64,000 nucleotides of DNA from Polaribacter septentrionalilitoris (GTDB lineage Bacteria; Bacteroidota; Bacteroidia; Flavobacteriales; Flavobacteriaceae): positions 124,001 through 188,000 of the forward strand of contig NZ_VRMJ01000042.1 in NCBI RefSeq assembly GCF_009832745.1, in the 5' to 3' direction. Below, piece after piece: positions 5,656-22,681 of this stretch. Below the pieces are notes generated by a model that was not told the DNA's origin, did no database searches, and saw only the letters and a program-made list of their open reading frames with translations. The position numbers were made by a program, and so were the translations under genes. Position 1 is the first letter of the stretch, and each line of letters begins with the position of its first letter.

Positions 5656-6810
5656 ATGGTTTCCAAAAAAATACAAAATATACTTATAAAGTATTTGAAT
5701 AATCAAGCTTCATTTTTAGAAATAGAAGAAATAGAACTTTGGTTAAATAATGATTTGAATAAGAAATTCTTCATTGAGTATGTCAAAGTTAATTACTTAA
5801 TTGATTTAAACTTAAAAAAGTTTAATACTTCTAATTCTCAAAAAAAATTATTAGAATTTATTTCTCAACAAAAAAGAGTCAAAAGAATTAGAAAAATTGC
5901 AGTTTTCTCAAAATATGCAGCAGCTATAGTCTTTTTTTTAGGCATATTTTATTTCGTTAAAAACGATATAGTTTCTGAACCTACTATTGTAAAATCACCT
6001 AAAGAAAGTATAACTTTAAAAATGAGCGATGGTAGTGTGAAAATAATTGATGAGAAAGGTAATTTTAAGATAAAGGATAAAGATGGGAATGAGCTAGGAA
6101 CTCAAAATGGGAATGCAATTGTTTATAATGATAAAGTCAAAATAGAAAAACTGGTATACAATACATTAACAGTACCTTATGGTAAAAGATTTGCTTTAAA
6201 ATTATCCGATGGCACAAAAGTTAACTTAAATGCTGGAACATCTTTAAGATATCCTGTTAAGTTTATAGAGGGGCAAAACAGACAAGTATATGTTGAAAAC
6301 GGAGAAGCATATTTTAATGTTACTAAAGATGTAAAGCATCCATTTATTGTATCAAACAACAACGTAAATGTAAGGGTTTTGGGAACTCAATTTAATATAA
6401 GTTCTTATCCTGAAGATGTAAATGTTTCAACAGTATTAGTAGAAGGTAGTGTAAGTTTATATAATAGTAATGATGCTTACAAATCTGAAAATGCCACACT
6501 TTTAAAACCTGGATACCTAGCAGGTTGGAATAAAAGAAATAAATCAATCAAAATAGAAAAGGCAGATATAGAAGTTCATACAGCTTGGATAAATGGGAGA
6601 ATCATTTTAAAACATATGAAGTTTGGCAATATCATAAAAAAACTAGAACGTCATTACGATGTAGAAATAAAGAACAACAACAAATCTCTTGAAGAAGAAT
6701 TAATTACAGCAACATTTGACATTGAAACAATTGAACAAGTTTTTGAGGTTATAAAAGAACTTCATCCAATTGAATATAAAATAAAAGATAAAACAATAAC
6801 AATTAACTAA
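5656..6810 (+). CDS. FecR-family anti-sigma factor
   Basis: A 384-residue single-pass inner-membrane regulator. The cytoplasmic N-terminus (about 1-85) would hold the ECF sigma factor. One membrane segment follows (YAAAIVFFLGIFYFV, about 88-104). The periplasmic FecR domain (about 165-285) shows LTVPYGKRFALKLSDGT, VNLNAGTSLRYP and FNISSYP, and the tail resembles the DUF4974 domain. It would receive the signal from the STN domain of the SusC protein encoded next and pass it to the divergent sigma factor. Confidence 0.9.
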   Translation: MVSKKIQNILIKYLNNQASFLEIEEIELWLNNDLNKKFFIEYVKVNYLIDLNLKKFNTSNSQKKLLEFISQQKRVKRIRKIAVFSKYAAAIVFFLGIFYFVKNDIVSEPTIVKSPKESITLKMSDGSVKIIDEKGNFKIKDKDGNELGTQNGNAIVYNDKVKIEKLVYNTLTVPYGKRFALKLSDGTKVNLNAGTSLRYPVKFIEGQNRQVYVENGEAYFNVTKDVKHPFIVSNNNVNVRVLGTQFNISSYPEDVNVSTVLVEGSVSLYNSNDAYKSENATLLKPGYLAGWNKRNKSIKIEKADIEVHTAWINGRIILKHMKFGNIIKKLERHYDVEIKNNNKSLEEELITATFDIETIEQVFEVIKELHPIEYKIKDKTITIN

Positions 6811-6868
6811 AATAAAATGCCAATGACATATTAAATACAGTAAAACTATTGAGTCATAATATGAGAAA

Positions 6869-6898
6869 AATCGAAAGATGCTGGAACATCTTCCGATT
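6869..6898 (+). promoter_or_regulatory. Hairpin in the leader between fecR and susC
   Basis: AATCGAAAGATG (6869-6880) pairs with CATCTTCCGATT (6887-6898), 12 bp with one mismatch and a 6-nt loop. There is no T run after it, so it is not a simple terminator. It lies in the 136-bp gap ahead of susC and may be an mRNA-stabilising or attenuating structure; function is inferred. Confidence 0.4.
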
Positions 6899-6946
6899 AA
6901 ATATTGTGACTAAAATTAATTAATCACTAAAATTCACTACAAAAAT

Positions 6947-9900
6947 ATGAAAAAAGTAATTAGGAAAAGAGTTAAAAACGCTATTCCAATAACGCTTAAT
7001 TTAAAAATGAGAATTACTACACTTTTATTATTGGTATCTCTTTTTCAGCTTCAGGCTAATAATTCTTATGCTCAAAAAACAAAAGTCTCTTTAGATTATA
7101 AAAATGTTAGTCTTGAAACCATTTTTAATAAAATTGAATCAATTACAGATTTTAAATTTATATACAAAGACAAAGAAATTGATTACAATCAAAAAGTTTC
7201 TATTAAAGCAAAAAAGGAACAGCTTTCTAAAGTTTTAAAAAGACTACTTACCAACTCAAAAATCACATATTTAGTTAATGGTAAACAAATTATTTTAAAA
7301 CCACTTAAAATAGCTTCTAATACAAAACAAGTAATTCAAAAGGAAAAAAATCAAAAAACAACTATTTCCGGAAGCATAGTTGATAAAGATGATAATCCAT
7401 TACCCGGAGCTAGTATTATAGAAAAAGGAACAACAAATGGTACTGAAACAGATTTTGATGGTAATTTTAAAATTTCTGTAACCGATAAGAATGCAATTTT
7501 AGTAGTACAATATCTAGGTTATGCTAAAAAAGAAATTGCAGTAAAAGATAAAACGACTTTTAAAATAGTTTTATTAGAAGATGCAGCAGCACTTGATGAA
7601 ATTGTTGTAATTGGTTATGGTTCTTTATCTAGATCAAAAGTATTAGGAGCTGTTAGTTCTGTAGGTGCAGAAGACATCAGCGAATTACCTGTAAGTAGCC
7701 TAGATGATGCTATTGCTGGTCGTGTTGCAGGTGTACAAATTGTATCAAATGGTGCTCCTGGTGCTGGTTCTACAATTAATATTAGAGGAATTGGTACCCT
7801 TACAGCTGGTGGTTCTCCACTAATTGTTGTTGATGGTTATCCCTTAACAGAAGGTAGTGACCTTAATGCTGTTAATCCAAATGATATTGAATCAATGAAC
7901 ATTTTAAAAGATGCAGCTTCTACTGCAATTTATGGTTCAAGAGGTGCTAATGGTGTCATCATTATTACTACCAAAAAAGCAAAATCAGACAAAGTAACTT
8001 TTAACTTCAATACTTTTTCTGGGTTTCAAGAAGTCCTAAATCAACCTAAATTTATGAATGCGTATCAATTTGCAGAGGTAGTAAAAGAAGCGAGAGATTG
8101 GGGATATGTATCTGCAGACCCAGCGAATAGAAATGAAAATGATAGCAATGCTACAAGACTATCCCAAGGTGCAGTATCTAGACATTTAATTCCATCTAAT
8201 TTTGATAAGTATTTATCAGGTACTCCCGGTTTAACAGATAATAATTGGTTAGATGATATTTTTAGAAGTGGTAGAATTGAGAGTTATGATGTTTCTGTTT
8301 CTGGAAGGTCAGGAAATACAAATTGGTATGTTTCTGGTGGATATTTCAATCAAGAAGGTTTAATACTTGGTTCGGATTTTAAGAGATATATTGCCAAAGT
8401 TAATTTAAATACAAAATTCAATGATAAATTGTCTTTTGGTATAAACCTAACCCCTAGTATTTCTAATAATAATCGTGTAATCGATGGATGGACAGATAGT
8501 CCTTTACAACAAGCAATATTATCAGAACCCTTTTTCACACCATATAACAATCAAGGAGAACTAAATATTAGTCAACAAATTAGATGGCATAATAATGGAG
8601 GTACTGATGGTGCTTTAACAGAAAATCCAGTTGCAATAGCTTTAGGGCGTAAAGACGAAAGAAATAAATTTCGATTATTTGGTAGTACTTTTTTAGAATA
8701 TCAAATAATAGAAGGTTTAAAGCTCAAAACGCTATTAGGTGGTGATTATGACTATTCTTTTAGAGAAGCATTCAGACCATCTTCAATTGGTAGTTATAGA
8801 AATGATGTAAATTCTACAGTAGCTTGGGCTACAGAAAGAACATCAGTAAGAAAAAATATTATTACAGAAAATACTTTTACCTATAATAAAAGTATTGGTA
8901 AACATAGTATTAACGGTTTAGCAGGGTATTCTTATCAAAAAGAAAACTCCACACGTACTTTTGTAGATGCTCCCAATTTAGATAGCGATAATATTCCAAA
9001 TATTGCTGGAACTGCTGTTACAACTACAGATAAAGACATTTCAGAATGGGTAAGAATTTCTTACTTTGGTAGAATTCAATATGATTATGATTCTAAATAT
9101 TTAGTTTCTGCCTCTACTAGAAGAGATGGTTCCTCTCGTTTTGGAGCAAATACAAAATTTGGTAACTTTTCTTCTTTTTCTGCTGGATGGGTAGTAAGTA
9201 ATGAAAATTTCTTTCCAGAAGATTCTTTTATTTCCAAATTAAAATTAAGATATAGTTGGGGACAAACAGGTAATGATCAAATTGGGAACTTTGGCTCTAT
9301 AGCAACGCTTAAAAATCTAAATGGTTTTATTAATGGTGGTTTAGCTACTGGGCAAATTCCAAGTGCATCTCCTAATGCAGATTTATCTTGGGAAACATCA
9401 GTTACAAATAATATTGGTTTTGATTTAGGTTTGTTTGATAATAAATTAAATTTAGTAGTAGATTATTTTGTTGCTAAAACAGAAGATATGCTACTCGATG
9501 TTCCTGTACCATTACAATCTGGTTTTACTAGATCTTTGCAAAATGTTGGTAAAATGGAAAACAAAGGATTGGAAATTGTTTTGTCAACATCAGATATTAA
9601 TTTAGGTGGTGTAAAATGGAATTCGAGTATCAATTTTACGACGATAGATAATAAAGTTAAAGCTTTAGGCCCTGGACAAACTGAAATTATTGATGGTGCC
9701 CATATTACAAAAATCGGAAATTCTATTGGTGAACTTTTTGGCTATCAAGTTGATGGTATTTATAAGTCTCAAGCAGAAATAAACGCATCTGCACAAAGTG
9801 GTACTGATGTTCGTGTTGGAGACTGGAGAATCGTTGATACTTCAGGAGATGGTATTATTAATGATGATGATAGACAATCATTAGGAGCTACTTTACCAGA

Positions 9901-10405
9901 TTTCACCTATGGTATGAATAACAGATTTTCTTATAAAAACTTTGATTTAAACGTATTTGTTGATGGCGTTCAAGGTGTTAATGTTCTTGATAGAACTGTT
10001 AGAAATGCATCAAATGGCCAAGGTTTTTCAAATCAATTTCAATCTTATTACGAAAACAGATGGCATCCAACAAACAATCCTAATGGATTTTTAGCAAGAC
10101 CAGACTATACACAATCCAGTGAAAGATTAAGGGCTAACGTCTCTTCAGCTTTCATAGAAGATGGTTCTTTTTTCAGAGTTAGAAATATAACTTTAGGTTA
10201 TAGTTTATCTGATTCTATATTAGAAAAGATAAAACTTTCAAAGTTAAGGGTATACGTTACTGCAACAAATCCCTTTATATCTACTAATTTTAAAGGTTTT
10301 AACCCAGAGCAAAGAGATAATAATAATCCATTATCACCAAGTGATAATGAGGGTGTTTATCCTCTAAATAAATCATTTGTTTTGGGATTAAACGTTTCAT
10401 TTTAA
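6947..10405 (+). CDS. susC: SusC/RagA TonB-linked outer-membrane transporter with STN signalling domain
   Basis: An 1152-residue outer-membrane importer that works under a SusD lid. The N-terminus is extended, then comes a signal segment (about 22-43). The STN (secretin/TonB short N-terminal) domain spans about 46-118. A carboxypeptidase-like beta domain follows (about 138-212, GSIVDKDDNPLPGAS). The TonB-box region DEIVVIGYG is at about 218-226, then the plug with IRGIGTLTAGGSPL and AIYGSRGANGVIIITTK, then the barrel ending GLNVSF. The STN domain marks it as a transducing transporter paired with FecR. It lies 16 bp before susD. Ligand unknown; downstream genes suggest a glycerophosphodiester or glycosyl-phosphate compound. 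Confidence 0.95.
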   Translation: MKKVIRKRVKNAIPITLNLKMRITTLLLLVSLFQLQANNSYAQKTKVSLDYKNVSLETIFNKIESITDFKFIYKDKEIDYNQKVSIKAKKEQLSKVLKRLLTNSKITYLVNGKQIILKPLKIASNTKQVIQKEKNQKTTISGSIVDKDDNPLPGASIIEKGTTNGTETDFDGNFKISVTDKNAILVVQYLGYAKKEIAVKDKTTFKIVLLEDAAALDEIVVIGYGSLSRSKVLGAVSSVGAEDISELPVSSLDDAIAGRVAGVQIVSNGAPGAGSTINIRGIGTLTAGGSPLIVVDGYPLTEGSDLNAVNPNDIESMNILKDAASTAIYGSRGANGVIIITTKKAKSDKVTFNFNTFSGFQEVLNQPKFMNAYQFAEVVKEARDWGYVSADPANRNENDSNATRLSQGAVSRHLIPSNFDKYLSGTPGLTDNNWLDDIFRSGRIESYDVSVSGRSGNTNWYVSGGYFNQEGLILGSDFKRYIAKVNLNTKFNDKLSFGINLTPSISNNNRVIDGWTDSPLQQAILSEPFFTPYNNQGELNISQQIRWHNNGGTDGALTENPVAIALGRKDERNKFRLFGSTFLEYQIIEGLKLKTLLGGDYDYSFREAFRPSSIGSYRNDVNSTVAWATERTSVRKNIITENTFTYNKSIGKHSINGLAGYSYQKENSTRTFVDAPNLDSDNIPNIAGTAVTTTDKDISEWVRISYFGRIQYDYDSKYLVSASTRRDGSSRFGANTKFGNFSSFSAGWVVSNENFFPEDSFISKLKLRYSWGQTGNDQIGNFGSIATLKNLNGFINGGLATGQIPSASPNADLSWETSVTNNIGFDLGLFDNKLNLVVDYFVAKTEDMLLDVPVPLQSGFTRSLQNVGKMENKGLEIVLSTSDINLGGVKWNSSINFTTIDNKVKALGPGQTEIIDGAHITKIGNSIGELFGYQVDGIYKSQAEINASAQSGTDVRVGDWRIVDTSGDGIINDDDRQSLGATLPDFTYGMNNRFSYKNFDLNVFVDGVQGVNVLDRTVRNASNGQGFSNQFQSYYENRWHPTNNPNGFLARPDYTQSSERLRANVSSAFIEDGSFFRVRNITLGYSLSDSILEKIKLSKLRVYVTATNPFISTNFKGFNPEQRDNNNPLSPSDNEGVYPLNKSFVLGLNVSF

Positions 10406-10421
10406 CTAAAAAATAAAAAAA

Positions 10422-11834
10422 ATGAAAATAACAAATTATATTAAAATATTGGTTGTATTAATAGTTTTTACAGCCTGCGAAAATGATTTAGATACTGCTC
10501 CTGAAGATAGATTTACAGCTGGTAGTTTTTATAAGAATGCTTCAGATATTGAAGCTGCTGTGAATGCTGCTTATGGTGGCCTCCAAAAAAATGGCCTTTA
10601 TGGTTTTAACTATCATATTCTAATTGAAACTAGATCAGATAATACTTTTGAAGAAGAACCTTCAAATTCTGGTGGTTTTGGAGATGTTGATTTATTTAAC
10701 AGAGTTACAACAAATGGAGTTTTTAGACAAACCTGGGTAGATTCTTATGTTACAATCCAAGCAGCTAATATTGTCTTAAACAGAATTGATGCAATTACTG
10801 ATATGGATAGTGCTTTAAAAGAAATAAGAAAAGGGGAGGTAAAATTTATAAGAGCATTGGTTTATTACAACTTGGTGAATTTATATGGTGGTGTTCCTTT
10901 AGTATTACAAGAAACAACAAATCCAACAGATTTCTTTGGACAAGGCAGAGCGAGCGAGCAAGAGGTTTTTGATCAAATAATTATAGATTTAAATGAAGCT
11001 TCAAGTGCTTTACCAGAATCTAATGATATTGGTAGAGCAAATAAAGGTGCTAGTCTAATTCTATTAGGTAAAGCACATTTAACTCTTGGTAACCCTTCTG
11101 AGGCAGAAACTGCATTAAGAGCAATTAACGGATATACATTTATAAATACATATGCAGATTTATTTGGCATTGCTAACGAAAATAATGCAGGTTCAATTTT
11201 TGAAGTGCAATTTCAATCTGGTGTAAATGGAGGTGAAGAAGGAAGTTTATTTGCGTCAAAGTTTAATTCTCAAAAAAACCCTGGTTCTAAAGGAAACAAT
11301 ATCATTACTCAAGATTTGTTAAACTCTTTTGAAGCTGGAGACTTACGTAGAAATGAGATTATCCAAGACCCTTTAGACCCTACTGTTTACATCTCTACAA
11401 AATATATAGATAACACAAGAACTCTTGTAGATGATGGAGATAACAATGCCATTGTTTTTAGATATGCAGACGTATTACTTTCTCTAGCAGAAGCTTTAAA
11501 TGCAAAAGGGTATGTTGCTGGTGGAGAGGCCTTCGATTTAATCAATAGAATTAGAACAAGAGCTGGTTTACCAAATTTAACATCAGCTACAATTACAAAC
11601 CAACAAGAGTTTACAGAAGCACTATTAAAAGAAAGAAGACACGAATTTTTCTATGAAAGTCATAGATGGTTGGACTTAAAAAGATTAGGTGATCCAGTCC
11701 AAGTAATGAATAATCATTTTGCAGGTTTTGTGGGTTTAAATATTACCATAGACCAAAATGATTTACTATTACCAATTCCTTTAGATCAATTAAATAGTGA
11801 TCCAGGAAGTATGCAACAAAACCCTGGTTATTAA
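10422..11834 (+). CDS. susD: SusD/RagB surface lipoprotein (ligand-binding lid)
   Basis: A 470-residue surface lipoprotein that caps the SusC channel and binds substrate. The lipobox FTACEN is near residue 19, followed by the conserved LDTAPEDRF start of mature SusD proteins. The RagB/SusD helical region contains TPR-like repeats (about 135-230), and the C-terminal part shows RRHEFFYESHRWLDLKRLGD, typical of the family. It lies 16 bp after susC and 18 bp before the first phosphodiesterase gene, so these form one operon. Confidence 0.95.
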   Translation: MKITNYIKILVVLIVFTACENDLDTAPEDRFTAGSFYKNASDIEAAVNAAYGGLQKNGLYGFNYHILIETRSDNTFEEEPSNSGGFGDVDLFNRVTTNGVFRQTWVDSYVTIQAANIVLNRIDAITDMDSALKEIRKGEVKFIRALVYYNLVNLYGGVPLVLQETTNPTDFFGQGRASEQEVFDQIIIDLNEASSALPESNDIGRANKGASLILLGKAHLTLGNPSEAETALRAINGYTFINTYADLFGIANENNAGSIFEVQFQSGVNGGEEGSLFASKFNSQKNPGSKGNNIITQDLLNSFEAGDLRRNEIIQDPLDPTVYISTKYIDNTRTLVDDGDNNAIVFRYADVLLSLAEALNAKGYVAGGEAFDLINRIRTRAGLPNLTSATITNQQEFTEALLKERRHEFFYESHRWLDLKRLGDPVQVMNNHFAGFVGLNITIDQNDLLLPIPLDQLNSDPGSMQQNPGY

Positions 11835-11852
11835 TATAAAAATTACAAGTAG

Positions 11853-12962
11853 ATGAAACCTTATAGTAAGTTTTTAGGTATTCTTTTTTTTCTAATTCTA
11901 AATGCTTGTGGTTCTGATGAGCCAATAATAAATCAAGTAAATGCCTCTTTTGAAATTGAACAAAGTGAATATTTCGCAAATGAACCTATAAGGTTTTCAA
12001 ATACATCTTCTGGTATTGGTACAAATTCAGTTTTTGAATGGGACTTTGGTGATGGTAATACCTCAACAAATAAGAACCCTACACACTCGTATGCTGCTAT
12101 CGGAGAAGGTACATATACGATACTTTTAAAAGTTTCTAATGGCAATAATGAAAGTAGTTTTACAAAAGACATAACTATAGCCTTTACTGAAAACATAGTT
12201 GGCAGAAAAAGTTTAGTCGAAAAACTAGGAGAAAATAAAATTTTAACCTGTGCTCATAGAGGCAATCAAAATAACGCACCAGAAAACTCTTTAAAATCAA
12301 TTCAAGATGCGATTAATGAAGAAATAGAAATGGTTGAAATTGATATAAGACAGACTAAAGATGGTAAGTTTGTTTTAATGCATGACAGCGCTTTAGAAAG
12401 AACTACTAATGGTTCTGGAAACGTAAGCGATTTCACATTGGTAGAACTGCAAAAACTAAAGTTAAAAGATAATAGAGGAGTTTTAACATCAGAAAAAATC
12501 CCTACGCTTCAAGAAGCTTTAAATCTGGGTAGAGGTAAAATCTACTTTGATTTAGATATGAGTAATAATAAAGTGTCATTTGATAGAATATATCCTGTTG
12601 TAAAGCAATATGGTATGATAAAACAATCTATTTTTTATACACAAGGTGTAAGCATTACACAATCAGCTCTCAATAAAGATGAAAACGTCATTGCTATGCC
12701 AGTGATTAGTAACGAAAATAGATTAAGCCAATTCGAAGATGATAGTAGAATAAAAGTTGCTCATTTTCAGTCTCAAACTTTCAATCAAAATTTCGTAAGT
12801 AGAGCAAAAGCAAAAGGCTGGTTCATATTTATGAATGCTTATATTAATACAACAAAAACTCCTTTAGATGATAATTACGCTGAAGTAGATAAAATAAGTA
12901 ATCTAGGAGGTAATATTATACAAACAGATAACCCTGTTTTAATTAAAGAACATTTAAACTAA
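11853..12962 (+). CDS. PKD-domain glycerophosphodiester phosphodiesterase lipoprotein
   Basis: A 369-residue lipoprotein (LNACGS lipobox near residue 18). A PKD beta-sandwich spans about 28-110, with the signature FEWDFGDGNTS. The GDPD TIM-barrel domain spans about 125-368, with AHRG, APENS, VEIDIRQTKDG, LMHD and FDLDMS supplying the usual acid/base and metal-binding residues, and IIQTDNP near the end. GDPD enzymes split phosphodiesters such as glycerophosphodiesters into an alcohol plus a phosphomonoester. Anchor, PKD domain and position after susD suggest action at the cell surface. A second GDPD without PKD is encoded at 16057. Exact substrate unknown. Confidence 0.88.
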   Translation: MKPYSKFLGILFFLILNACGSDEPIINQVNASFEIEQSEYFANEPIRFSNTSSGIGTNSVFEWDFGDGNTSTNKNPTHSYAAIGEGTYTILLKVSNGNNESSFTKDITIAFTENIVGRKSLVEKLGENKILTCAHRGNQNNAPENSLKSIQDAINEEIEMVEIDIRQTKDGKFVLMHDSALERTTNGSGNVSDFTLVELQKLKLKDNRGVLTSEKIPTLQEALNLGRGKIYFDLDMSNNKVSFDRIYPVVKQYGMIKQSIFYTQGVSITQSALNKDENVIAMPVISNENRLSQFEDDSRIKVAHFQSQTFNQNFVSRAKAKGWFIFMNAYINTTKTPLDDNYAEVDKISNLGGNIIQTDNPVLIKEHLN

Positions 12963-12969
12963 TTATAAA

Positions 12970-14469
12970 ATGAAAAATAAATCAAATGCTTTGATAATAT
13001 CTTTATTGATATTTTTAAGTCTAATAATCACGTCTTGTGAAGACAATGAAATTGTTGGTAAACCTGTTTCTACAGTAATACCAAATGCTAATTTTTCTGT
13101 AAAAGCAGATAAATTTCAAGCAGGTCAAAAAATAGAATTTACAGATTTATCAGAAGATCCTGATGGTTTTATAACAGCTTGGGAATGGGATTTTGGTGAC
13201 TCTCAAACTTCTTCTGACCAATCTCCTGATCACTTTTACCAATTAGGTGGTAATTACTCTGTAAAATTAATTGCTATTGATAATACAGGAAGTGAAAGTG
13301 AAGTTTTCTCAAAAGAAGTGGTTGTCGCTGATGACCCTTTAGCAAATATCGATGCTCCAGAAACCCTTTGGAGCTTTGATTTAGATGGGAAATTAAATCA
13401 CTCTAACCCTGCTGTATCTGATGATGGAACTGTATATATAGGTTTTAATCAAGCCATAAGAGAAAACCAAGGTCCAGACTTCTTTGCCATAAAAGATGGT
13501 GCTAAAGTTTGGGAACAAGTATTTATTGAAGGTAGTGCTCAAAAATCAGATCAAATAAGGTCTTCTCCTTCAATTGGTCCAAATGGTAATTTATATACCT
13601 CATCTTATTATAGTAGAACAACATTTGTTTTAAATCCTGCAACTGGTGTTATTGACAATGAAATAAATCTAAATGCAAGGGTAAGATACAATTGCCCAAC
13701 ATTTGGTACAGATGGTTCAGTTTATATTGCTGGTCATAATAAAGATGGTAGAGGTTTCCATTCGGTAAATCAAAGTTTAACAACAGCGAATTGGGTATTT
13801 CAAAGTGGTTCAGAGTTTAATGCAACTCCAGCTATTGGTACAGATGGAACTATTTATGTGGGTTCAACAAATGATAATTTTTACGCTATAAATCCAGATG
13901 GTACAGAAAAATGGAGTATAAATTATGGGACTTGGACAGCAAGTGCCACTGCAATTGGTCCAGATGGTACGATTTATTTTTCTGGTGAAACTTCGACTGG
14001 AGGTGTGCTTTTAGCAATTAATCCAAATGGTTCTATTAAATGGCAAAAAGATTTACCTGCAAAAGCAGCACAAGGTGGACCAGCAGTTGCTGCTGATGGT
14101 ACTATTTACCTAGGTGGTTATGAAGAAAAAATGATAGCTTATAATCCAGATGGTTCTGAAAAATGGTCTTATTCAGCAAAAGGTGCAATTGAAGTTGTAC
14201 CAGCTATTGATAATGATGGAAACCTTTATTTTGGTGATACAAATGGATTCTTTCACGTTGTAAATTCTGATGGTTTAAACCCATACAAGGTTACAAAACT
14301 AGGTGATGAAATTCATTCATCTGCAGCTATTGGTTCTAATGGTATCATTTATTTAGCTGTAAATCAAGGCGATTTTGGTAAAGTATATGCTTTAAAAACA
14401 AATGCAACTGGTCTTCAATCTGGAGGTTGGCCTATGTATGCTAAAGACGCAAAACACACAGGAAGGTAA
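12970..14469 (+). CDS. PKD plus PQQ-like beta-propeller surface lipoprotein
   Basis: A 499-residue lipoprotein (ITSCED lipobox near residue 23). A PKD domain covers about 38-118 (WEWDFGDSQTSSDQ). The rest is a repeated beta-propeller with units such as AIGTDGTIYVGS, FYAINPDGTEKWS and AVAADGTIYLGG, the PQQ/pyrrolo-quinoline-like repeat. No catalytic residues stand out, so a binding role is likelier than catalysis. The C-terminal half is closely similar to the protein encoded at 14552, so the two are paralogues. It lies 7 bp after the first GDPD gene. Confidence 0.8.
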   Translation: MKNKSNALIISLLIFLSLIITSCEDNEIVGKPVSTVIPNANFSVKADKFQAGQKIEFTDLSEDPDGFITAWEWDFGDSQTSSDQSPDHFYQLGGNYSVKLIAIDNTGSESEVFSKEVVVADDPLANIDAPETLWSFDLDGKLNHSNPAVSDDGTVYIGFNQAIRENQGPDFFAIKDGAKVWEQVFIEGSAQKSDQIRSSPSIGPNGNLYTSSYYSRTTFVLNPATGVIDNEINLNARVRYNCPTFGTDGSVYIAGHNKDGRGFHSVNQSLTTANWVFQSGSEFNATPAIGTDGTIYVGSTNDNFYAINPDGTEKWSINYGTWTASATAIGPDGTIYFSGETSTGGVLLAINPNGSIKWQKDLPAKAAQGGPAVAADGTIYLGGYEEKMIAYNPDGSEKWSYSAKGAIEVVPAIDNDGNLYFGDTNGFFHVVNSDGLNPYKVTKLGDEIHSSAAIGSNGIIYLAVNQGDFGKVYALKTNATGLQSGGWPMYAKDAKHTGR

Positions 14470-14497
14470 ACAAAAACACATATCTATTTTAATAATT

Positions 14498-14522
14498 AGA
14501 CGGTTCTGAAAATGAACCGTCT
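14498..14522 (+). terminator. Intra-operon hairpin (possible partial terminator)
   Basis: AGACGGTTC (14498-14506) and GAACCGTCT (14514-14522) form a perfect 9-bp stem with a 7-nt loop, between the two beta-propeller genes. Only a weak TT follows, so it may trim expression of downstream genes or protect mRNA rather than stop transcription fully. Confidence 0.5.
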
Positions 14523-14551
14523 TAAAAATCAACATTTTAAATTCTAATATT

Positions 14552-16045
14552 ATGAAAAAAAACTACACATTATTATTCGTATTATCTATTTTATCTATGG
14601 CTTCTTATAGTCAACTTACTGAAAGCTGGTTTTATACTTTACCAGATAAAGTAGCATACTCTGGACCAGCTATCGCTGAAGATGGCACAATATATATAGC
14701 TTGTGACTATAGTGACAGAAATTCTGAAGCATCTTATGAAGACACTCCTTTTAATTTCTTCGCTATAAACCCAAACAATACTTTAAAATGGCAAGGGCAC
14801 ATTAATGAAGGTTCTACTCAAAATAAAGTTGATCAAGTTATATCTAGTGCTTCAATAAATGCTGATGGCTCTGTGTATATAGGTGGGCATTATGGTAGAA
14901 GAATTCACAGGTTTAATGCTATTACTGGTGATACTTTAAGTACAAATTATATAAATTCCAGAATGCGATACACTGCACCTGCATTTTCATCAAACGGAGA
15001 TGTTTATGTTTTAGTTCGTAACAATGGTGATAAAGGAGTACGAAACTTTTCTACCGATTTAACAACACAAAATTGGATTTTTGAAACTGGTACTGATTTT
15101 AATAGTGTGCCTGCAATTGGTGCAGATGGTACTATTTACGCAATATCTACGAATGATAATATTTATGCAATAAATCCAGATGGTACTCAAAAATGGTCTG
15201 CACCTTACAGTGCTGGTGGCGGTTATGCAAGTTCTGCTATTGCTCTTGCTAATGATGGGACTATTTATGCTTCTGCCAAACTTAATTCTGATAAGGATGG
15301 TGTTTTAAAAGCATACAATCCTGCAGATGGTTCTGAAAAATGGTCTGTTACATTTACAGGTGAAAATGTTGAAAAAGGTGGTCCAGCTGTTGCAGCAGAT
15401 GGTACAGTGTACCTTGGGAATACTGGCGGTAAAATGCAAGCATTTAACCCTGCAAACGGAGCAATTTTATGGACTTATTCAGCGAATTCTGCTATTGAGG
15501 TTGTACCAGCTATTGATAATTTAGGAAGAATTTATTTCGGTGATACCTCTGGGATGTTTTATGTGCTTAATAGTGATGGCACGGAAGCTTACACTCCTTT
15601 GAGTCTCGGGACTAAAATTACTTCTCCTGCAGCAATTCACACTGATGGTAAAATATTTGTTGGTGTTGAAACTTCAACTGGTGGTAAATTAAGTGCTTTA
15701 ACTACTTCTGCAACCGGTTTGCAGACAAGTGGTTGGCCAATGTATGGTAGAAATACAAAACATACTTCAAATGTAAATAATGTAGTACTATCAATAGAAA
15801 GTTTTAACTCCATTGAGGGTTTAAATATCTATCCTAATCCAGTTAACAAAGAGGGTTTTTATATAACAGCAACTTCCAATGCTAAAATAACTGTTCGTCT
15901 TTTCGATATTCTAGGCAAAGAAATTTTTTCAAAAACAATAAATAGTAATGAGAAAATAGAAACTCAAAATTTAAAATCAGGCATTTATATGTTAAAAGCT
16001 ATTCAGGATAATAAAACGGCTTCATCTAAAATTATTATTGAGTAA
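14552..16045 (+). CDS. PQQ-like beta-propeller protein secreted by the type IX system
   Basis: A 497-residue exported protein with signal peptide (about 1-20, SMASYSQ). PQQ-like propeller repeats follow (about 22-405: AIAEDGTIYIA, AIGADGTIYAIS, AVAADGTVYLGN). The C-terminal domain of about 75 residues has LNIYPNPV, VRLFDILGKEI and LKSGIYMLK, the type A sorting signal of the type IX secretion system. It lacks the lipobox and PKD domain of its paralogue at 12970, so the pair seems to place similar propellers at the surface by two routes. Role probably binding. Confidence 0.85.
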   Translation: MKKNYTLLFVLSILSMASYSQLTESWFYTLPDKVAYSGPAIAEDGTIYIACDYSDRNSEASYEDTPFNFFAINPNNTLKWQGHINEGSTQNKVDQVISSASINADGSVYIGGHYGRRIHRFNAITGDTLSTNYINSRMRYTAPAFSSNGDVYVLVRNNGDKGVRNFSTDLTTQNWIFETGTDFNSVPAIGADGTIYAISTNDNIYAINPDGTQKWSAPYSAGGGYASSAIALANDGTIYASAKLNSDKDGVLKAYNPADGSEKWSVTFTGENVEKGGPAVAADGTVYLGNTGGKMQAFNPANGAILWTYSANSAIEVVPAIDNLGRIYFGDTSGMFYVLNSDGTEAYTPLSLGTKITSPAAIHTDGKIFVGVETSTGGKLSALTTSATGLQTSGWPMYGRNTKHTSNVNNVVLSIESFNSIEGLNIYPNPVNKEGFYITATSNAKITVRLFDILGKEIFSKTINSNEKIETQNLKSGIYMLKAIQDNKTASSKIIIE

Positions 16046-16056
16046 TTCAATTAAAA

Positions 16057-16986
16057 ATGAAAAAAATCTGTTATTTATTTATTCTATTATCCATTCTTTT
16101 TACGAGTTGTGAAAGTAAATATTCGAGAGGTGAAAATCAAAATTCTCTTAACCTAACAATTGAAGAAAAAATAGAGAACTTAACCAACTCTAAAGATAAT
16201 CAAGTTATTGTAGTGTCTCACAGAGGAGATTGGCGAAACGCACCTGAAAATTCTTTACAAGCAATTAAAAACTGTATAAAGATGGGTGTAGATATGGTTG
16301 AAATTGATATAAGAGAAACCAAAGATGGTCATTTAGTTCTAATGCACGACAAAACTCTAAATAGAACAACAAACGGAAAAGGTAAAGTAAAAGAATGGAC
16401 ATTAGATTCATTAAGAACTTTAAACCTAAAAGATGGCTTAGGCGTAGTAACTAAACATAAAATACCAACACTAAAAGAAGCTTTAGAGGTATCAAAAAAT
16501 AAAATCTTGGTAAATCTTGATAAGAGCTATAAAATTTTTGACAAATGTTATCAAATTATTTTAGAAACTGGCACAGAAAATCAAGTAGTAATTAAAGGTG
16601 GTAAAGATTATCTTACAGTAAAAAAAGAATTTGGTGAGTATTTAGATAAAGTACATTTTATGCCAATTTTAGGCTTACCTAATAATAGTGCTAAAAGATT
16701 CGTTGATGATTATATGAATTCAGAAAACAAGCCTATAGCTTTCGAGTTTACAGTAAAGTCTGATACTATTAATTTTCTGAAAAAATTTAAAAATATTAGA
16801 GATAATGGTGCAAGTATTTGGGTAAATTCTTTATGGCCTCATCACAATGCTAATCACGATGATGAAGAAGCTGTAAATAATATAGAAATCTATGATTGGT
16901 TTATTAATAACCATATCGATATTATTCAAACAGACCGTCCACAATTATTACTCAATTATTTAAGAAAAAAAGGGTTACACAAATAA
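16057..16986 (+). CDS. Glycerophosphodiester phosphodiesterase-family lipoprotein
   Basis: A 309-residue lipoprotein (FTSCES lipobox near residue 18). The GDPD barrel spans about 50-305: VSHRGDWRNAPENS, MVEIDIRETKDG, VLMHDKTLNRTTNG, IPTLKEAL, then NLDKS in the place of the E/D-x-D-x-K strand. The terminal IIQTDRPQLLLNYL closes the barrel. Compared with the PKD-GDPD at 11853 it has a longer segment near the C-terminus (WVNSLWPHHNANHDDE), so it may handle a different bond or a shorter substrate, probably in the periplasm. Last gene before the terminator at 17011. Confidence 0.85.
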   Translation: MKKICYLFILLSILFTSCESKYSRGENQNSLNLTIEEKIENLTNSKDNQVIVVSHRGDWRNAPENSLQAIKNCIKMGVDMVEIDIRETKDGHLVLMHDKTLNRTTNGKGKVKEWTLDSLRTLNLKDGLGVVTKHKIPTLKEALEVSKNKILVNLDKSYKIFDKCYQIILETGTENQVVIKGGKDYLTVKKEFGEYLDKVHFMPILGLPNNSAKRFVDDYMNSENKPIAFEFTVKSDTINFLKKFKNIRDNGASIWVNSLWPHHNANHDDEEAVNNIEIYDWFINNHIDIIQTDRPQLLLNYLRKKGLHK

Positions 16987-17010
16987 ACTATTTATTTGAA
17001 TTAGTTAATT

Positions 17011-17045
17011 AAAGGGCATAGCAGAATGTGTTATGCCCTTTTTAA
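17011..17045 (+). terminator. Terminator/attenuator between the surface genes and the transport/metabolism genes
   Basis: AAAGGGCATA (17011-17020) pairs perfectly with TATGCCCTTT (17032-17041), followed by further T residues. It divides the locus into an envelope part and a cytoplasmic part and covers an ATG at 17033, which argues against that codon as the transporter start. Confidence 0.75.
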
Positions 17046-17059
17046 ATTCTTATCAAAAA

Positions 17060-18364
17060 ATGATAAAATACTTTAAAAAATCAGCTCCTACTTCAATTAC
17101 AAAAACAGAAAGTGAACAACAATCCTATTATAAAAAATTAAAATGGCAAGTATTTATTTCAGCCACTCTAGGTTATGGATTATATTATGTCTGTAGGCTA
17201 AGCTTAAATGTAATTAAAAAACCAATTGTTGATGCTGGTGTTTTAACCGAATCTGAATTAGGTATTATTGGTTCTACTTTATTCTTTGCTTATGCAATAG
17301 GTAAGTTTACCAATGGCTTTTTAGCAGATCATAGCAATATAAAAAGATTCATGTCTGTAGGTTTGTTAATCTCAGCATTAGCAAATTTAGTAATGGGCTT
17401 TACAAGTACTTTTCTATTTTTTGCGATTTGCTGGGGTATAAATGGATGGGTACAGTCTATGGGTGCACCATCAAGTGTAGTATCATTATCCAGGTGGTAT
17501 AAAGATTCAGAAAGAGGTAGTTTTTATGGCTTTTGGAGCACAAGCCACAATATAGGTGAAGCATTAACATACATTTTAACTGCAGTTGTTGTTTCTTATT
17601 TTGGTTGGCAATGGGGATTTAGAGCAGCTGCAATAATTGGTTTATTAGGAGCTTTAATAATCTCTTTGTTTTTTCACGACACCCCTGAAAGTAAAGGTTT
17701 ACCTCCAGTCAATAAAGATTTCACCAAAAAGAAAACTTCAACTTGGGAAGAACAAAGCGGTGTACTAAAAAATCCATATGTATGGCTTTTAGCATTATCA
17801 AGTGCTTTTATGTACATATCAAGATATGCTGTAAATAGTTGGGGGCCTTATTATTTTGAAGCAGCAAAAGGATATACATTAACACAAGCAAATAGTTTAG
17901 TAGCCATTAGTGCTGTTTGTGGAATAATTGGAACCGCATCATCTGGTTTTGTTTCAGATAAAATATTTAATGGAAGAAGAAATATACCAGCTTTATTATT
18001 TGGATTGATGAATGTTTTTGCCCTTTGTCTTTTCTTATTAGGCCCTAAAAACACCTGGTGGTTAGATGCCATAAGTATGGTGATTTTTGGTTTAGGTATA
18101 GGAGCATTAATTTGTTATTTAGGTGGTTTAATGGCGGTTGATATTGCATCAAAAAAAGCATCTGGTGCAGCTCTAGGTATTGTAGGTATTATGAGTTATG
18201 CTGCTGCAGGTATTCAAGATATTGCAAGTGGATATTTAATTGAAAATAATAAAACAATAGTTAATAATGAAATCGTATATAACTTCGATACAATAACATT
18301 CTTTTGGATAGGTTCAGCAATTCTATCAGTTGTATTGGCTTTATTAGTTTGGAAAAAAACGTAA
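17060..18364 (+). CDS. MFS transporter of the organophosphate:phosphate antiporter type (GlpT/UhpT-like)
   Basis: An inner-membrane carrier of about 434 residues with about 12 membrane helices. Motifs such as YYVCRLSLNVIKKPI at the first helix, the ELGIIGSTLFFAYAIGKFTNG loop and WGINGWVQSMGAPS match the OPA subfamily, which exchanges glycerol-3-phosphate or hexose phosphates for phosphate. I chose ATG 17060 (MIKYFKK) over ATG 17033 because the latter lies inside the terminator hairpin. The gene follows the phosphodiesterases and precedes HAD, galE and galT, so it likely imports the phosphomonoester they release. Glycerol-3-phosphate versus sugar phosphate cannot be decided from sequence. Confidence 0.85.
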   Translation: MIKYFKKSAPTSITKTESEQQSYYKKLKWQVFISATLGYGLYYVCRLSLNVIKKPIVDAGVLTESELGIIGSTLFFAYAIGKFTNGFLADHSNIKRFMSVGLLISALANLVMGFTSTFLFFAICWGINGWVQSMGAPSSVVSLSRWYKDSERGSFYGFWSTSHNIGEALTYILTAVVVSYFGWQWGFRAAAIIGLLGALIISLFFHDTPESKGLPPVNKDFTKKKTSTWEEQSGVLKNPYVWLLALSSAFMYISRYAVNSWGPYYFEAAKGYTLTQANSLVAISAVCGIIGTASSGFVSDKIFNGRRNIPALLFGLMNVFALCLFLLGPKNTWWLDAISMVIFGLGIGALICYLGGLMAVDIASKKASGAALGIVGIMSYAAAGIQDIASGYLIENNKTIVNNEIVYNFDTITFFWIGSAILSVVLALLVWKKT

Positions 18365-18368
18365 ATAA

Positions 18369-18989
18369 ATGAGTAAAATAAAAAATATAGTATTCGATTT
18401 AGGTGGTGTGATTATGAATTTGGATGTACCAAAAACAATTAAGGCATTACATAAAATAGGTATAGAAAAAATTGTCAATAACACTGGGCACAATTACCAT
18501 CATTCTTTTTTTTATGATTTTGAAGTTGGTGATATTTCAGAAGAACAATTTTTAGAATCTCTACAGAAACTATCAAAGAAAAAAATGACTTTTTTAGAAA
18601 TAAAAGAAGCTTGGAATGCGATGATATTAGATATTCCCGAATATAGAATTGATTTTCTTAAAGATTTAAAAGAAGAATATAATTTATTCTTATTGAGTAA
18701 TACCAATAGTATTCATCAATTCAAATATTTGTCTGAATTTAATCAGAAATACAACTATTCATTCAATAATTTATTTCAAAGAGCATATTATTCACATGAA
18801 ATAGGTTTAAGAAAACCAGACAAAAAAGTATATGAATTTGTTTTAAAAGACAGCAACTTAAAAGCATCAGAAACACTTTTCATAGATGATTCTCTAACAA
18901 ACATTAAAGCTGCTCAAAAAACGGGTATCAATAGCTTTCATATAGTTAATTATAATATTTCGGATTGTTTAGACAAATTAAAAAAATAA
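18369..18989 (+). CDS. HAD-IA phosphatase, YihX-like
   Basis: A 206-residue haloacid-dehalogenase hydrolase. Motif I is VFDLGGVIMNLD, with the second Asp of the classical DxD replaced by Gly, as in the YihX group. Motif II is LLSNTN, the lysine motif is in GLRKPDKKVYE, and motif III is LFIDDSLTNIKAA. E. coli YihX dephosphorylates alpha-glucose-1-phosphate. Placement next to galE and galT makes glucose-1-phosphate, the GalT product, an attractive substrate, but this is inferred. It lies 4 bp after the transporter gene, with galE following directly. Confidence 0.75.
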   Translation: MSKIKNIVFDLGGVIMNLDVPKTIKALHKIGIEKIVNNTGHNYHHSFFYDFEVGDISEEQFLESLQKLSKKKMTFLEIKEAWNAMILDIPEYRIDFLKDLKEEYNLFLLSNTNSIHQFKYLSEFNQKYNYSFNNLFQRAYYSHEIGLRKPDKKVYEFVLKDSNLKASETLFIDDSLTNIKAAQKTGINSFHIVNYNISDCLDKLKK

Positions 18990-20018
18990 ATGAAAAATAA
19001 AATATTAGTAACTGGTGGTTGTGGTTACATAGGATCTCATACTGTTGTGCAACTAATTGAAAATAATTTTGAAGTAACAATATTAGATAATCTCTCTAAT
19101 TCTCAAGAAAATGTAATTGATAGTATTAAAGAAATTACAGGAAGAAAACCTTATTTCTTAAAATGTGATTTAAAAAACCTAAAACATTTAGAGAATATTC
19201 TAAAATATCATAAAGGTTTTGATGCAATTATTCATTTTGCAGCGCATAAAGCAGTTGGTGAGTCCGTACAAAATCCATTAATGTATTATCAGAATAACCT
19301 AACAGGTTTAATTAATTTATTAGCCTCTGCTAAAAAATACAAAATAGATAACTTAATTTTTTCTTCATCAGCAACGGTTTATGGCAAGCCAAAATCTTTA
19401 CCCATATCAGAAAAAAATAAAACACAAAGACCATCATCTCCTTATGGGAATTCAAAAAAAGTTGCTGAAGAAATCATAGAAGATCTTGCTGCAGCTTCTA
19501 AAGACTTTTCAGCAATATCACTTCGTTACTTCAACCCAATTGGTGCACATAAATCGGGTTTAATTGGCGAACTTCCAACAGGCATCCCTAATAATTTAAT
19601 GCCATACATTACACAAACTGCAATTGGTTTAAGAGAAAAATTAATGGTTTATGGAAATGACTACCCTACTAAAGATGGCACACCAATAAGAGATTATATT
19701 CACGTAGAAGATTTAGCAGATGCACACGTAAAAGCGTTAAGTAGATTGCTAAATAAAAATCAGGAATCCAATTTTGAAGTAATGAATTTAGGAACAGGTA
19801 ATGGGTTTTCTGTTTTAGAAGTAATCAAAACTTTTGAAGAAGTAACACAACAAAAATTGAATTATGAGATTACACAAAGAAGAGCTGGAGATGTACCTGA
19901 ATTATATGCTGATGCAAAACTAGCAGAAGAAAAACTGAATTGGAAAGCAGATAGAACGCTAGATGAGATGATTAAATCTTCTTGGGTATGGGAACAAAAA
20001 GCAAGAAAACAATCTTAA
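18990..20018 (+). CDS. galE: UDP-glucose 4-epimerase
   Basis: A 342-residue extended short-chain dehydrogenase. It has the NAD-binding TGGCGYIGSHTVVQL (about 7-21), IHFAAHKAVGES, the Ser-Tyr-Lys set SSSATVYG with YGNSKK, and RYFNPIGAH. GalE interconverts UDP-galactose and UDP-glucose in the cytoplasm. Its ATG directly follows the HAD stop codon. Together with GalT it would regenerate the UDP-sugar needed to turn galactose-1-phosphate into glucose-1-phosphate. Length is normal for the family. Confidence 0.93.
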   Translation: MKNKILVTGGCGYIGSHTVVQLIENNFEVTILDNLSNSQENVIDSIKEITGRKPYFLKCDLKNLKHLENILKYHKGFDAIIHFAAHKAVGESVQNPLMYYQNNLTGLINLLASAKKYKIDNLIFSSSATVYGKPKSLPISEKNKTQRPSSPYGNSKKVAEEIIEDLAAASKDFSAISLRYFNPIGAHKSGLIGELPTGIPNNLMPYITQTAIGLREKLMVYGNDYPTKDGTPIRDYIHVEDLADAHVKALSRLLNKNQESNFEVMNLGTGNGFSVLEVIKTFEEVTQQKLNYEITQRRAGDVPELYADAKLAEEKLNWKADRTLDEMIKSSWVWEQKARKQS

Positions 20019-20027
20019 AAAATAAAT

Positions 20028-21053
20028 ATGAATTCATTATTAGACAAAACACACATTAGAAAAAACATACTAACTGGTGAAGAGGTATTGGTTTCACCTC
20101 ACAGAACCAAAAGACCTTGGCAAGGAAAAGTAGAAAAAAATGAAGTTTTAAATAAAACTGCTTATGATGAAAATTGTTATTTATGTCCAACTAATAAAAG
20201 AGCTGGTGGTCAAATAACGCCTAACTATAAAAACACCTATGTTTTTGAAAATGATTTTGCAGCAATACTTCCAGAATCAAATACTCAAAAATTAAAAAAC
20301 GGATTATTAGAAGCACATTCAGAAAGAGGAATTTGTAAAGTGATTTGTTTTTCGCCAAATCATTCTTTAACACTTGCTAAAATGACAATTGATGAAATTG
20401 TTCAAGTCATTTTAACTTGGCAAAAAGAGTTCAAAGAATTAGCTGAAAAAGAGTTTATAAATTCTGTACAAATATTTGAAAATAGAGGTGAAATTATGGG
20501 ATGCAGTAATCCTCATCCTCACGGACAAATTTGGGCACAAGAAACAATTCCAGTTGAAATAAAAAAGAAAACATCAAATTTCTTAAACTACTATAAAAAA
20601 AATAACACATCAATATTAGAAGACTATAGTAAACAAGAATTATCAGTAGGGAAAAGAGTTGTTTATGAAAATGCAGACTTTATAATAGTGGTTCCTTTTT
20701 GGGCAGTTTGGCCTTATGAAACGATGATTATTCCAAAAGAGAAAGCAAAGAATATTTTACAAATGAATGAAAATAAGATTGTAAACTTTGCGAAAGCAAT
20801 AAAAACAATTACTACTATTTATGATAAAGTCTTTGATGTGTCTTTCCCTTATTCTGCAGGTATTCATCAAGCACCTACTGATAAAGAAAACTATGATAGT
20901 TGGCATTGGCATATGAGTTTTTATCCTCCCCTATTGCGTTCTGCTTCAGTAAAAAAATTTATGGTAGGTTATGAAATGTTTGCAATGCCACAAAGAGATA
21001 TAACTCCAGAAATGGCTGCTAATTTATTAAAAGAAATTGCCGATATCAGTTAA
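20028..21053 (+). CDS. galT: Galactose-1-phosphate uridylyltransferase
   Basis: A 341-residue HIT-superfamily transferase that converts galactose-1-phosphate plus UDP-glucose to glucose-1-phosphate plus UDP-galactose. The active-site motif NPHPHGQIW is present, with CYLCPTNKRAGG as a possible zinc site near residue 50 and WHWHMSFYPPL near the end. The N-terminal HRTKRPWQG is typical. It is the last gene of the metabolic operon, 9 bp after galE and followed by a strong terminator. No galactokinase (galK) or mutarotase gene accompanies it. Confidence 0.93.
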   Translation: MNSLLDKTHIRKNILTGEEVLVSPHRTKRPWQGKVEKNEVLNKTAYDENCYLCPTNKRAGGQITPNYKNTYVFENDFAAILPESNTQKLKNGLLEAHSERGICKVICFSPNHSLTLAKMTIDEIVQVILTWQKEFKELAEKEFINSVQIFENRGEIMGCSNPHPHGQIWAQETIPVEIKKKTSNFLNYYKKNNTSILEDYSKQELSVGKRVVYENADFIIVVPFWAVWPYETMIIPKEKAKNILQMNENKIVNFAKAIKTITTIYDKVFDVSFPYSAGIHQAPTDKENYDSWHWHMSFYPPLLRSASVKKFMVGYEMFAMPQRDITPEMAANLLKEIADIS

Positions 21054-22018: not shown

Positions 22019-22032
22019 ACACGTAACCTCCT

Positions 22033-22147
22033 CGTAACTACGAAAACATTATTTTCAGAATAGTAAAGTCTCATTTCTTACCAAAACGCAACAAAAAACA
22101 AGATAATAATAGTAGAAAAAGACAAATAAAAACTTTTCGTAGTTACG
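22033..22147. repeat. Long-spaced 14-bp inverted repeat downstream of rteC
   Basis: CGTAACTACGAAAA at 22033-22046 recurs as its exact reverse complement at 22134-22147, with 87 bp between. The pair lies in the 306-bp gap between rteC and the next gene. Such a structure could be an origin of transfer or replication or a regulator site; no function is demonstrated. Confidence 0.55.
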
Positions 22148-22259
22148 TCCAACTAACGTAATGAATCTAAAAATTCTTCTGAAGTTTGCCAGCGAAAGTC
22201 AAACCAACGGTTCACGAACTCATTTATTTAATAATATAAAAGTCGTGAGCTAAATCAAT

Positions 22260-22307: not shown

Positions 22308-22324
22308 TTAAAAATCGTTTACAA

Positions 22325-22676: not shown

Positions 22677-22681
22677 ATGCT

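Follow-up and report, generated by a model that had tools for sequence, protein, structure and literature searches.

A SusCD locus with GDPD lipoproteins, an OPA-family carrier and a GalT gene without linked galactokinase in Polaribacter septentrionalilitoris: a candidate route for phosphate-linked sugars

AccF, the GDPD-family phosphodiesterase of the acc operon of Ti plasmids, releases arabinose-2-phosphate and glucose-2-phosphate according to PMC4526662, the Pus systems of Flavobacterium are SusCD loci with phosphodiesterases (PMC8115612), and the OPA-type carrier Hpt of Listeria imports glucose-1-phosphate (PMC10667646). AccF is a known precedent for a GDPD that releases sugar phosphates, and Hpt for an OPA carrier that imports an aldose-1-phosphate. 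Here we describe a locus of Polaribacter septentrionalilitoris, contained in a stretch of 64,000 nucleotides (contig NZ_VRMJ01000042.1, positions 124,001 to 188,000; hereafter the window), in which a SusCD pair is joined by two GDPDs, an OPA carrier, a HAD phosphatase, GalE and GalT. The best single reading, put forward tentatively, is that of a mobile SusCD locus for phosphate-linked sugars, with kinase-free entry of galactose-1-phosphate.

All genes named in a first-pass annotation of the window are intact open reading frames (ORFs), with the coordinates and family matches it had given. On the + strand, a SusC/RagA TonB-linked outer-membrane transporter (6947..10405; TIGR04056, 915.6 bits at a cut-off of 368.25) is followed by a SusD-family lipoprotein (10422..11834; Pfam SusD_RagB and SusD-like_3, with lipobox), a lipoprotein-type GDPD with a PKD and a GDPD domain (GDPD1, 11853..12962; PF03009 with 94.5 bits, PF18911, catalytic motifs and lipobox), a lipoprotein-type protein with a PKD domain and a PQQ/BamB-like beta-propeller (PQQ1, 12970..14469; Pfam, lipobox), a further propeller with a T9SS type A sorting domain (PQQ2, 14552..16045; Por_Secre_tail/TIGR04183), a second lipoprotein-type GDPD carrying DUF4996 (GDPD2, 16057..16986; PF03009 with 97.9 bits, PF16387 with 99.1 bits, catalytic motifs), the OPA-family MFS carrier (17033..18364), the HAD phosphatase (18369..18989), the UDP-glucose 4-epimerase GalE (18990..20018; TIGR01179, 436.2 bits at a cut-off of 262.3) and the galactose-1-phosphate uridylyltransferase GalT (20028..21053). 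The intergenic gaps from SusC to GalT measure 0-82 bp, with 4, 0 and 9 bp along OPA-HAD-GalE-GalT, and the run is therefore likely to form one operon; in a promoter and terminator scan of it, the counts fell inside the spread of shuffles. The locus has the SusC and SusD pair of a polysaccharide utilization locus, and the combination of SusCD with phosphodiesterases of a Pus-type locus, as defined in PMC8115612. No glycoside hydrolase or polysaccharide lyase was found among the Pfam and NCBIfam matches of the operon, nor among the 50 rows shown for a structure model of PQQ2.

GalT scored above both NCBIfam equivalog cut-offs (PRK11720 and TIGR00209; 479.8 vs 448 and 427.2 vs 102.1 bits) and retains the CYLC, NPHPHGQIW and YEMF..PQRD motifs. 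By these curated cut-offs the earlier assignment of GalT and GalE stands, and of the Leloir enzymes the locus encodes the uridylyltransferase and the epimerase, with no galactokinase. In the whole-genome search that the first-pass annotation had suggested, the window genome (G000) yielded one galK match, on another contig (C40), directly before a second, canonical galT (galK and galT at G000:C40:166177-168361). As the only galK match of the genome lies there, the absence of galK holds for the locus and not for the genome; a strictly galK-free organism is ruled out by the pair on C40, and nothing obliges this bacterium to run the module without a kinase.

The linkage of galT to galK was assessed in a same-family sample of 299 genomes, with 118 galT matches in 113 genomes, of which a 118-residue fragment (G020) was dropped to leave 117. 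By coordinates, 106 of the 117 lie within 6 kb of galK. The 11 left comprise the window, locus L082 and nine that were fetched, seven of which have galK next to galT. Outside the window and L082, galT thus stands beside galK in 113 of 115 cases, and the unlinked copies number four: those of the window, L082 (genome G044), L158 (G269) and L162 (G204). The L158 copy is solitary (its two scanned neighbours are biotin-carboxylase-type and short-chain dehydrogenase genes), and the L162 copy adjoins an SSF symporter and is close to a GH53 gene, the galK of its genome being on another contig (possibly a contig break). A galK match is present somewhere in all 113 galT genomes. Fisher's test of GDPD-OPA loci against galT without linked galK gave p 9e-4 in this sample, and p 2e-6 after addition of two Aquimarina-group loci and the canonical galT of G516; since the loci share descent and were partly found through the GDPD/OPA search, both figures are guides. 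As a separate observation, 54 of the 167 genomes of the sample with a galK match have no galT match, and many flavobacteria may therefore finish galactose catabolism by another enzyme.

Few genomes encode a relative of the carrier at E 1e-100 or better (9 of 397 in the family, 3 of 97 genomes of the window's genus, and 2 of 66 in the genus group of Aquimarina longa). From searches with OPA and GDPD2, 15 loci with both GDPD and OPA were gathered (window, L082, L083, L084, L085, L091, L098, L099, L107, L132, L133, L135, L172, L174 and L176). Their ORFs were named by blastp at E 1e-8 against the window proteins and a few others, including the genome's own GalK, which leaves most flanking ORFs unlabelled; the carrier genes of L107 and L135 are broken, L083 is a contig of 6.9 kb, and weaker GDPD matches (about ten genomes, 31-36% identity) stand outside all counts. 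GalT is present in four of the 15 (window, L082, L099, L176), GalE in two and HAD in seven, and galK was seen in none within the stretches fetched. Among 19 distinct loci in long stretches with a GDPD relative and no OPA (L087 and L102 being one locus, counted once), GalT occurs in one, L094. By a rough chance expectation of ~0.001 per locus for GalT beside OPA and GDPD, the binomial probability of 4 in 16 (including L134, an OPA locus without GDPD) is ~4e-9, for loci that are not fully independent. The position of GalT beside GDPD and OPA is not due to chance, and the arrangement without galK is recurrent. The first-pass annotation, which had named consistent galK linkage in homologous loci as the observation that would speak against it and had called for a search for the gene set in other Flavobacteriia, is borne out on this point: the galK-free GalT module tied to GDPD and OPA recurs in four genomes, none of its four loci showing galK in the stretches fetched.

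GalT was recruited into these loci from at least three lineages. In a tree of 50 sequences, window GalT forms a divergent clade with those of G138 and G516 (L176) (support 100/99), the L082 sequence falls among canonical GalTs, and that of A. longa (L099) groups with L158 and L162 (94/93); for the three labelled loci (window, L082, L099), starred branches force three separate origins, the G516 row being unlabelled in this count. The G138 gene is adjoined by galK and a LacI-type gene. Window GalT is a divergent paralogue of the canonical C40 copy, to which it is 58% identical. A canonical galK and galT, close to each other, are retained besides in the window genome and in G516, so that the locus galT is an extra paralogue in these two genomes; in G044 the galT of L082 is the sole copy.

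In the reading that we favour, the SusCD pair and the surface propellers would bind and import a sugar phosphodiester, and the lipoprotein GDPDs would cut it so as to leave the phosphate on the sugar, which is how AccF acts on agrocinopine. Transfer of the resulting sugar monophosphate (galactose-1-phosphate in this locus) to the cytoplasm would fall to the OPA carrier, with phosphate as the presumable counter-substrate. GalT would convert it to glucose-1-phosphate at the cost of UDP-glucose, GalE would restore the UDP-glucose, and the glucose-1-phosphate would go to phosphoglucomutase; given this recycling, no galactokinase would be needed and one ATP would be saved. HAD would have an accessory role, removing phosphate from those hexose or polyol phosphates that are no substrates of GalT, and would not be an obligatory end of the cycle. 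The gene set, its close spacing, its repeated occurrence without adjoining galK, the GalT lineages and the pocket class of the carrier are observations; the direction of GDPD cleavage, the carrier substrate, the flow through GalT and the role of HAD are inferences. To name glycerophospho-galactose as the food would be a guess; no sequence feature names the diester.

A number of observations weigh against this reading, and several of them speak for a different one. GDPDs classically release glycerol-3-phosphate. If they did so here, the products would be glycerol-3-phosphate and free galactose (mannose or xylose in sister loci); OPA would import the former, and the free sugar would enter via another permease and pass through chromosomal GalK and then the local GalT and GalE. 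galK is indeed present elsewhere in the window genome, in the genome of L082 and in G516, so that the module could borrow it. The SSF symporters of L099 and L107 and the xylose isomerase of L107 are handlers of free solutes, and release of a free sugar by the GDPDs would fit these, as well as the mannose-6-phosphate isomerase and xylose-type tails. In L172, a gene for a GpsA-type glycerol-3-phosphate dehydrogenase lies 0.3 kb beyond a GDPD gene. One carrier type serves loci with different sugar genes: within the main group carriers are 72-94% identical despite galactose, mannose, xylose or no sugar genes nearby, which an invariant cargo such as glycerol-3-phosphate would explain at least as well. 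Further points touch the proposed module itself. GalT is confined to four of the 15 GDPD-OPA loci, and five have neither GalT nor HAD; HAD and GalT co-occur in the window locus only; L094 holds its GDPD in a GH53/GH2 locus with galK, galT, galE and SSF and without OPA, and L108 is an OPA-less GDPD locus with a galK upstream. A table note in PMC10667646 lists galactose-1-phosphate as not supporting growth of Listeria.

Release of glycerol-3-phosphate with free galactose ranks next after the galactose-1-phosphate reading, and we consider it rather unlikely. The absence of galK from four of four GalT loci, vs its place beside galT in 113 of 115 cases elsewhere, is not expected from it, nor is the doubtful galK of A. 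longa described below. No glycerol catabolic gene was found in the window operon by Pfam and NCBIfam, and most flanking ORFs of the sister loci were without family search. The carrier also argues against it, being far below the GlpT cut-off and having five pocket positions in common with the carrier of a phytase-type gene set.

That carrier belongs to the OPA family, as had been annotated, and to none of its curated subgroups: NCBIfam scores were 225.6 of 632.55 bits for GlpT, 154.3 of 497 for UhpT, 166.7 of 750 for PgtP and 249.5 of 407.75 for the subfamily model TIGR00881. In comparison with E. coli GlpT, UhpT and UhpC (GlpT numbering), residues Y38, Y42, R45, K80, H165 and R269 are conserved, including the paired arginines and the histidine (R45, R269, H165) of the phosphate site of OPA carriers. 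K46, N162 and E299, common to GlpT, UhpT and UhpC, are L, S and A in 14 of 14 aligned carriers (the broken ones of L107 and L135 excluded). At position 169 the main group has E, and L082, L084 and L134 have K, the K169 of L082 being a further point against the favoured reading. With L46, S162, E169 and A299, the window carrier represents a distinct pocket class.

Relatives on plasmid records are of two types. The Klebsiella carrier, 46% identical overall, matches the window carrier at L46, S162, H165, E169 and A299 and differs at 138, 139 and 365, which again counts against the favoured reading. In its gene set (L191 8072-11644) it is flanked by an inositol-monophosphatase-type enzyme on one side and an AppA/Agp-type acid phosphatase on the other, both below their NCBIfam cut-offs. 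The set is possibly an uptake route for inositol monophosphate; in PMC11219571, consulted on the Klebsiella operon, the words transporter, monophosphate and operon are absent from the text. As the Klebsiella stretch has no annotated gene producing glycerol-3-phosphate, a role confined to this substrate is less likely for the pocket; the pocket class would thus argue against a glycerol-3-phosphate-only carrier and is no proof of a sugar phosphate cargo. The other type carries M46, G162, R165, E169 and P299. Its Plesiomonas and Vibrio members adjoin a pyruvate kinase gene and a set of substrate-binding protein, sensor and regulator, which resembles the PgtABC system; the Proteus member is flanked by similar-reading ORFs in an unannotated part of the record.

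A. longa would provide a natural test case, with its only galT inside the GDPD-OPA locus L099 and its only galK candidate doubtful. The best galK match is a GHMP kinase of 26% identity, below the five NCBIfam galactokinase cut-offs listed (e.g. 135.1 of 443 and 115.0 of 226.65 bits) and at 131.0 of 163.05 bits with the mevalonate kinase model. It may still be a galactokinase, since it passes the cut-off of the Pfam galactose-binding signature (36.5 of 23.1 bits), and in this the case for kinase-free entry is weakened. Weak galK-like matches coexist with strong ones in other genomes of the group, of which 48 of 66 have a galK match above 300 bits by eye count; the other 18 lack a strong match and the A. 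longa assembly is a draft, which likewise tells against reading much into its absence there.

Both GDPDs of the window carry a lipoprotein-type signal and the HRG...PEN / ExD / HD motifs, and belong to the family by their PF03009 domain and catalytic motifs. They score 67.7 and 78 of 264 bits with the NCBIfam equivalog PRK09454, below its cut-off, and the best solved relative of GDPD2 is 3i10 (E 9.7e-81). The first-pass annotation had spoken of surface and lipid-anchored GDPDs: the lipid anchors hold, and the T9SS-sorted protein of the locus is PQQ2 instead of a GDPD. For a structure model of PQQ2 (pLDDT 81.6, pTM 0.73), Foldseek ranked designed propellers, YxaL, BamB and 3hxj, which bears the title PQQ_DH, highest; tetrathionate hydrolase came in rows 38 and 41 among the 50 shown. 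From this resemblance, PQQ2 is probably a surface binding protein, an enzymatic role being still conceivable from the PQQ_DH and tetrathionate hydrolase rows. The idea of the propellers as hidden lyases or phytases was dropped on the same resemblance to designed propellers, YxaL, BamB and the PQQ_DH-titled structure.

The HAD phosphatase is a distant relative of YihX, and to that extent "YihX-like", with a score of 99.8 of 295 bits that leaves it below the equivalog cut-off; among solved structures the closest to it is 4dcc, titled 'Putative haloacid dehalogenase-like hydrolase' (9.3e-35), with YihX behind at 1.1e-19. The first-pass annotation had closed its cycle by letting HAD release glucose. 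This step is weak: HAD is absent from three of four GalT loci (L082, L099, L176), and six GDPD-OPA loci have it while lacking GalT. The galactose cycle therefore does not regularly end with HAD, and hydrolysis of glucose-1-phosphate to glucose would discard the phosphate saved by the kinase-free route. A cycle ending in glucose was thus dropped as a core step. Taken as a whole, the earlier interpretation is partly supported and its underlying observation partly confirmed.

The distribution of HAD also bears on the possibility that phosphorus, rather than sugar, is the main gain. A Pus-type system could strip phosphate from mixed phosphodiesters (lipid head groups, inositol or polyol phosphates), with OPA importing assorted monophosphates, HAD freeing the phosphate and the sugar genes as opportunistic add-ons. 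SusCD-phosphodiesterase loci of Flavobacterium are induced by phosphate starvation, according to PMC8115612; HAD occurs in seven of 15 GDPD-OPA loci, the Klebsiella relative of the carrier stands among phosphatases, and sister loci encode MBL-fold or NAGPA proteins. A chance add-on, however, leaves unexplained why GalT without galK appears in four loci from at least three lineages, and HAD is missing from three of these four. We regard this explanation as unlikely, below the release of glycerol-3-phosphate.

The tails of the sister loci vary. L085 and L132, of the same genus, carry a mannose-6-phosphate isomerase gene. L084 encodes a phosphodiester glycosidase (NAGPA, PF09992; 8915-10657) downstream of OPA, two GDPDs and HAD, so that in this sister locus sugar phosphodiesters have an enzyme of a second kind. 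L107 (1-20307), a GDPD-OPA-HAD locus of Polaribacter filamentus, has a xylose-type module behind it, composed of an FGGY kinase nearest to xylulokinase (292.6 of 380.25 bits, below cut-off), a xylose isomerase (682.1 of 533.25 bits), an SSF symporter and a transketolase; its SusC, SusD and OPA genes are all broken, each into two ORFs, by decay or sequencing error. A metallo-beta-lactamase-fold protein recurs at L091 9498 (Pfam, over cut-off), L172 13584 (below cut-off) and L135 10729 (37% identical to that of L091).

In L176/L177 (G516), GDPD-GDPD-OPA-GalT lies directly behind a nucleoside phosphorylase gene. Upstream there are also genes for a NupC-type transporter, an amidohydrolase, a cytosine/purine-type permease and a member of the metalloenzyme superfamily whose sequence reads as phosphopentomutase, and in L134 a related carrier stands beside DeoB, NupC, pyrimidine catabolism genes and a phytase-like gene. 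These neighbourhoods would fit a scavenging of UDP-sugars, in which UDP-galactose is split outside into UMP and galactose-1-phosphate, with the uridine passed to nucleoside catabolism and the galactose-1-phosphate to GalT. No nucleoside genes were recognised in the window, L082 or L099, which confines the association to one GalT locus, and GDPDs are not known to split pyrophosphates. We hold this explanation to be highly improbable.

Beyond the single locus, the galactose-1-phosphate reading can be widened to a transferable SusCD class that would eat sugar phosphodiesters via sugar-1-phosphate import, with a new OPA pocket class, an interchangeable tail (GalT/GalE, mannose-6-phosphate isomerase or xylose genes) and galactose bypassing the kinase step. 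This wider claim is possible but doubtful. Were it true, the sea would contain a glycosyl-phosphodiester nutrient that is abundant and has so far gone unrecognised. The favoured reading of the locus, if right, would itself give the Leloir pathway a kinase-free entry from an outside diester and would point to glycosyl-phosphodiesters as a source of both carbon and phosphorus for flavobacteria. It would also give a testable substrate class to an OPA subfamily and to GDPD lipoproteins now named solely after glycerophosphodiesters.

The surroundings of the operon point to a mobile element. The locus is bounded by a tyrosine recombinase (integrase) on one side (2943..4199, +; Pfam Phage_integrase, Phage_int_SAM_5 and Arm-DNA-bind_5) and by the conjugative-transposon protein RteC on the other (21176..22018, +; PF09357, 220.4 bits), which lies 122 bp behind GalT and marks the cargo edge. 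GalE and GalT are the last operon genes before the mobile-element genes both here and in L082 (15834-19353), where GalT is followed by an RteC-like ORF, 27% identical to window RteC, and next by ORFs 61% and 62% identical to those at 22661 and 23746 of the window (window region 21176-24408). Given this same gene order behind GalT, the operon is probably cargo of related conjugative elements. In front of SusC lie a FecR-like anti-sigma factor (5656..6810, +; NCBIfam FecR PRK09774, 41.8 of 385 bits, below cut-off) and, divergent from the operon, an ORF that reads as an ECF-type sigma factor (4953..5543, -; family name read from the sequence), relatives of which head many GDPD-SusCD loci. Farther downstream, the window encodes a 1101-residue protein with a VIGNPPY motif (24514-27819), by eye probably a restriction-modification methyltransferase, an FGE-sulfatase-domain protein (36500-37591) and an ABC1-type kinase (38408-39712).

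A literature search, with most subscription papers outside it and hence no proof of absence, found no paper joining GDPD, SusD and polysaccharide utilization loci, and on uptake of galactose-1-phosphate or its galactokinase-free use it gave, among the papers listed, PMC10667646 as the sole useful source.

Among the described systems, the acc operon of Ti plasmids (AccF/AccG) shares with the window a GDPD-family phosphodiesterase, AccF leaving the phosphate on a sugar (PMC4526662). The gene at the place of accF on pTiC58, which the record does not name and which we assigned by place and product, is a Pfam GDPD (PF03009), 37% identical to a window GDPD over 113 aligned residues; it precedes a phosphatase gene (annotated as inositol monophosphatase family) and lies near the sucrose phosphorylase gene gtfA. 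Unlike the window locus, the acc operon imports the whole diester by an ABC system, cleaves it inside the cell and yields sugar-2-phosphates, and it has no OPA carrier, SusCD, GalT or GalE. Pus loci resemble the window in pairing SusCD with phosphodiesterases in place of glycoside hydrolases (PMC8115612); the window locus differs by its OPA carrier and Leloir enzymes. The Klebsiella set likewise combines a phosphatase with an OPA carrier, equal at 46, 162, 165, 169 and 299, but has an acid phosphatase instead of a GDPD, no sugar-nucleotide enzymes, and a carrier that departs at the three positions given above. In GlpQ-GlpT of Escherichia coli, as in the window, a GDPD and an OPA carrier stand side by side; the window carrier is only 29% identical to GlpT, with a changed pocket and a score far below the GlpT cut-off, and glpABC, adjacent in E. 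coli, has no counterpart in the window operon. With the canonical Leloir operon (galK-galT, often with galM or galE) the locus shares a true GalT and GalE by curated cut-offs, and it differs in having no galK and in its GalT, a divergent paralogue that comes after GDPDs and an OPA carrier.

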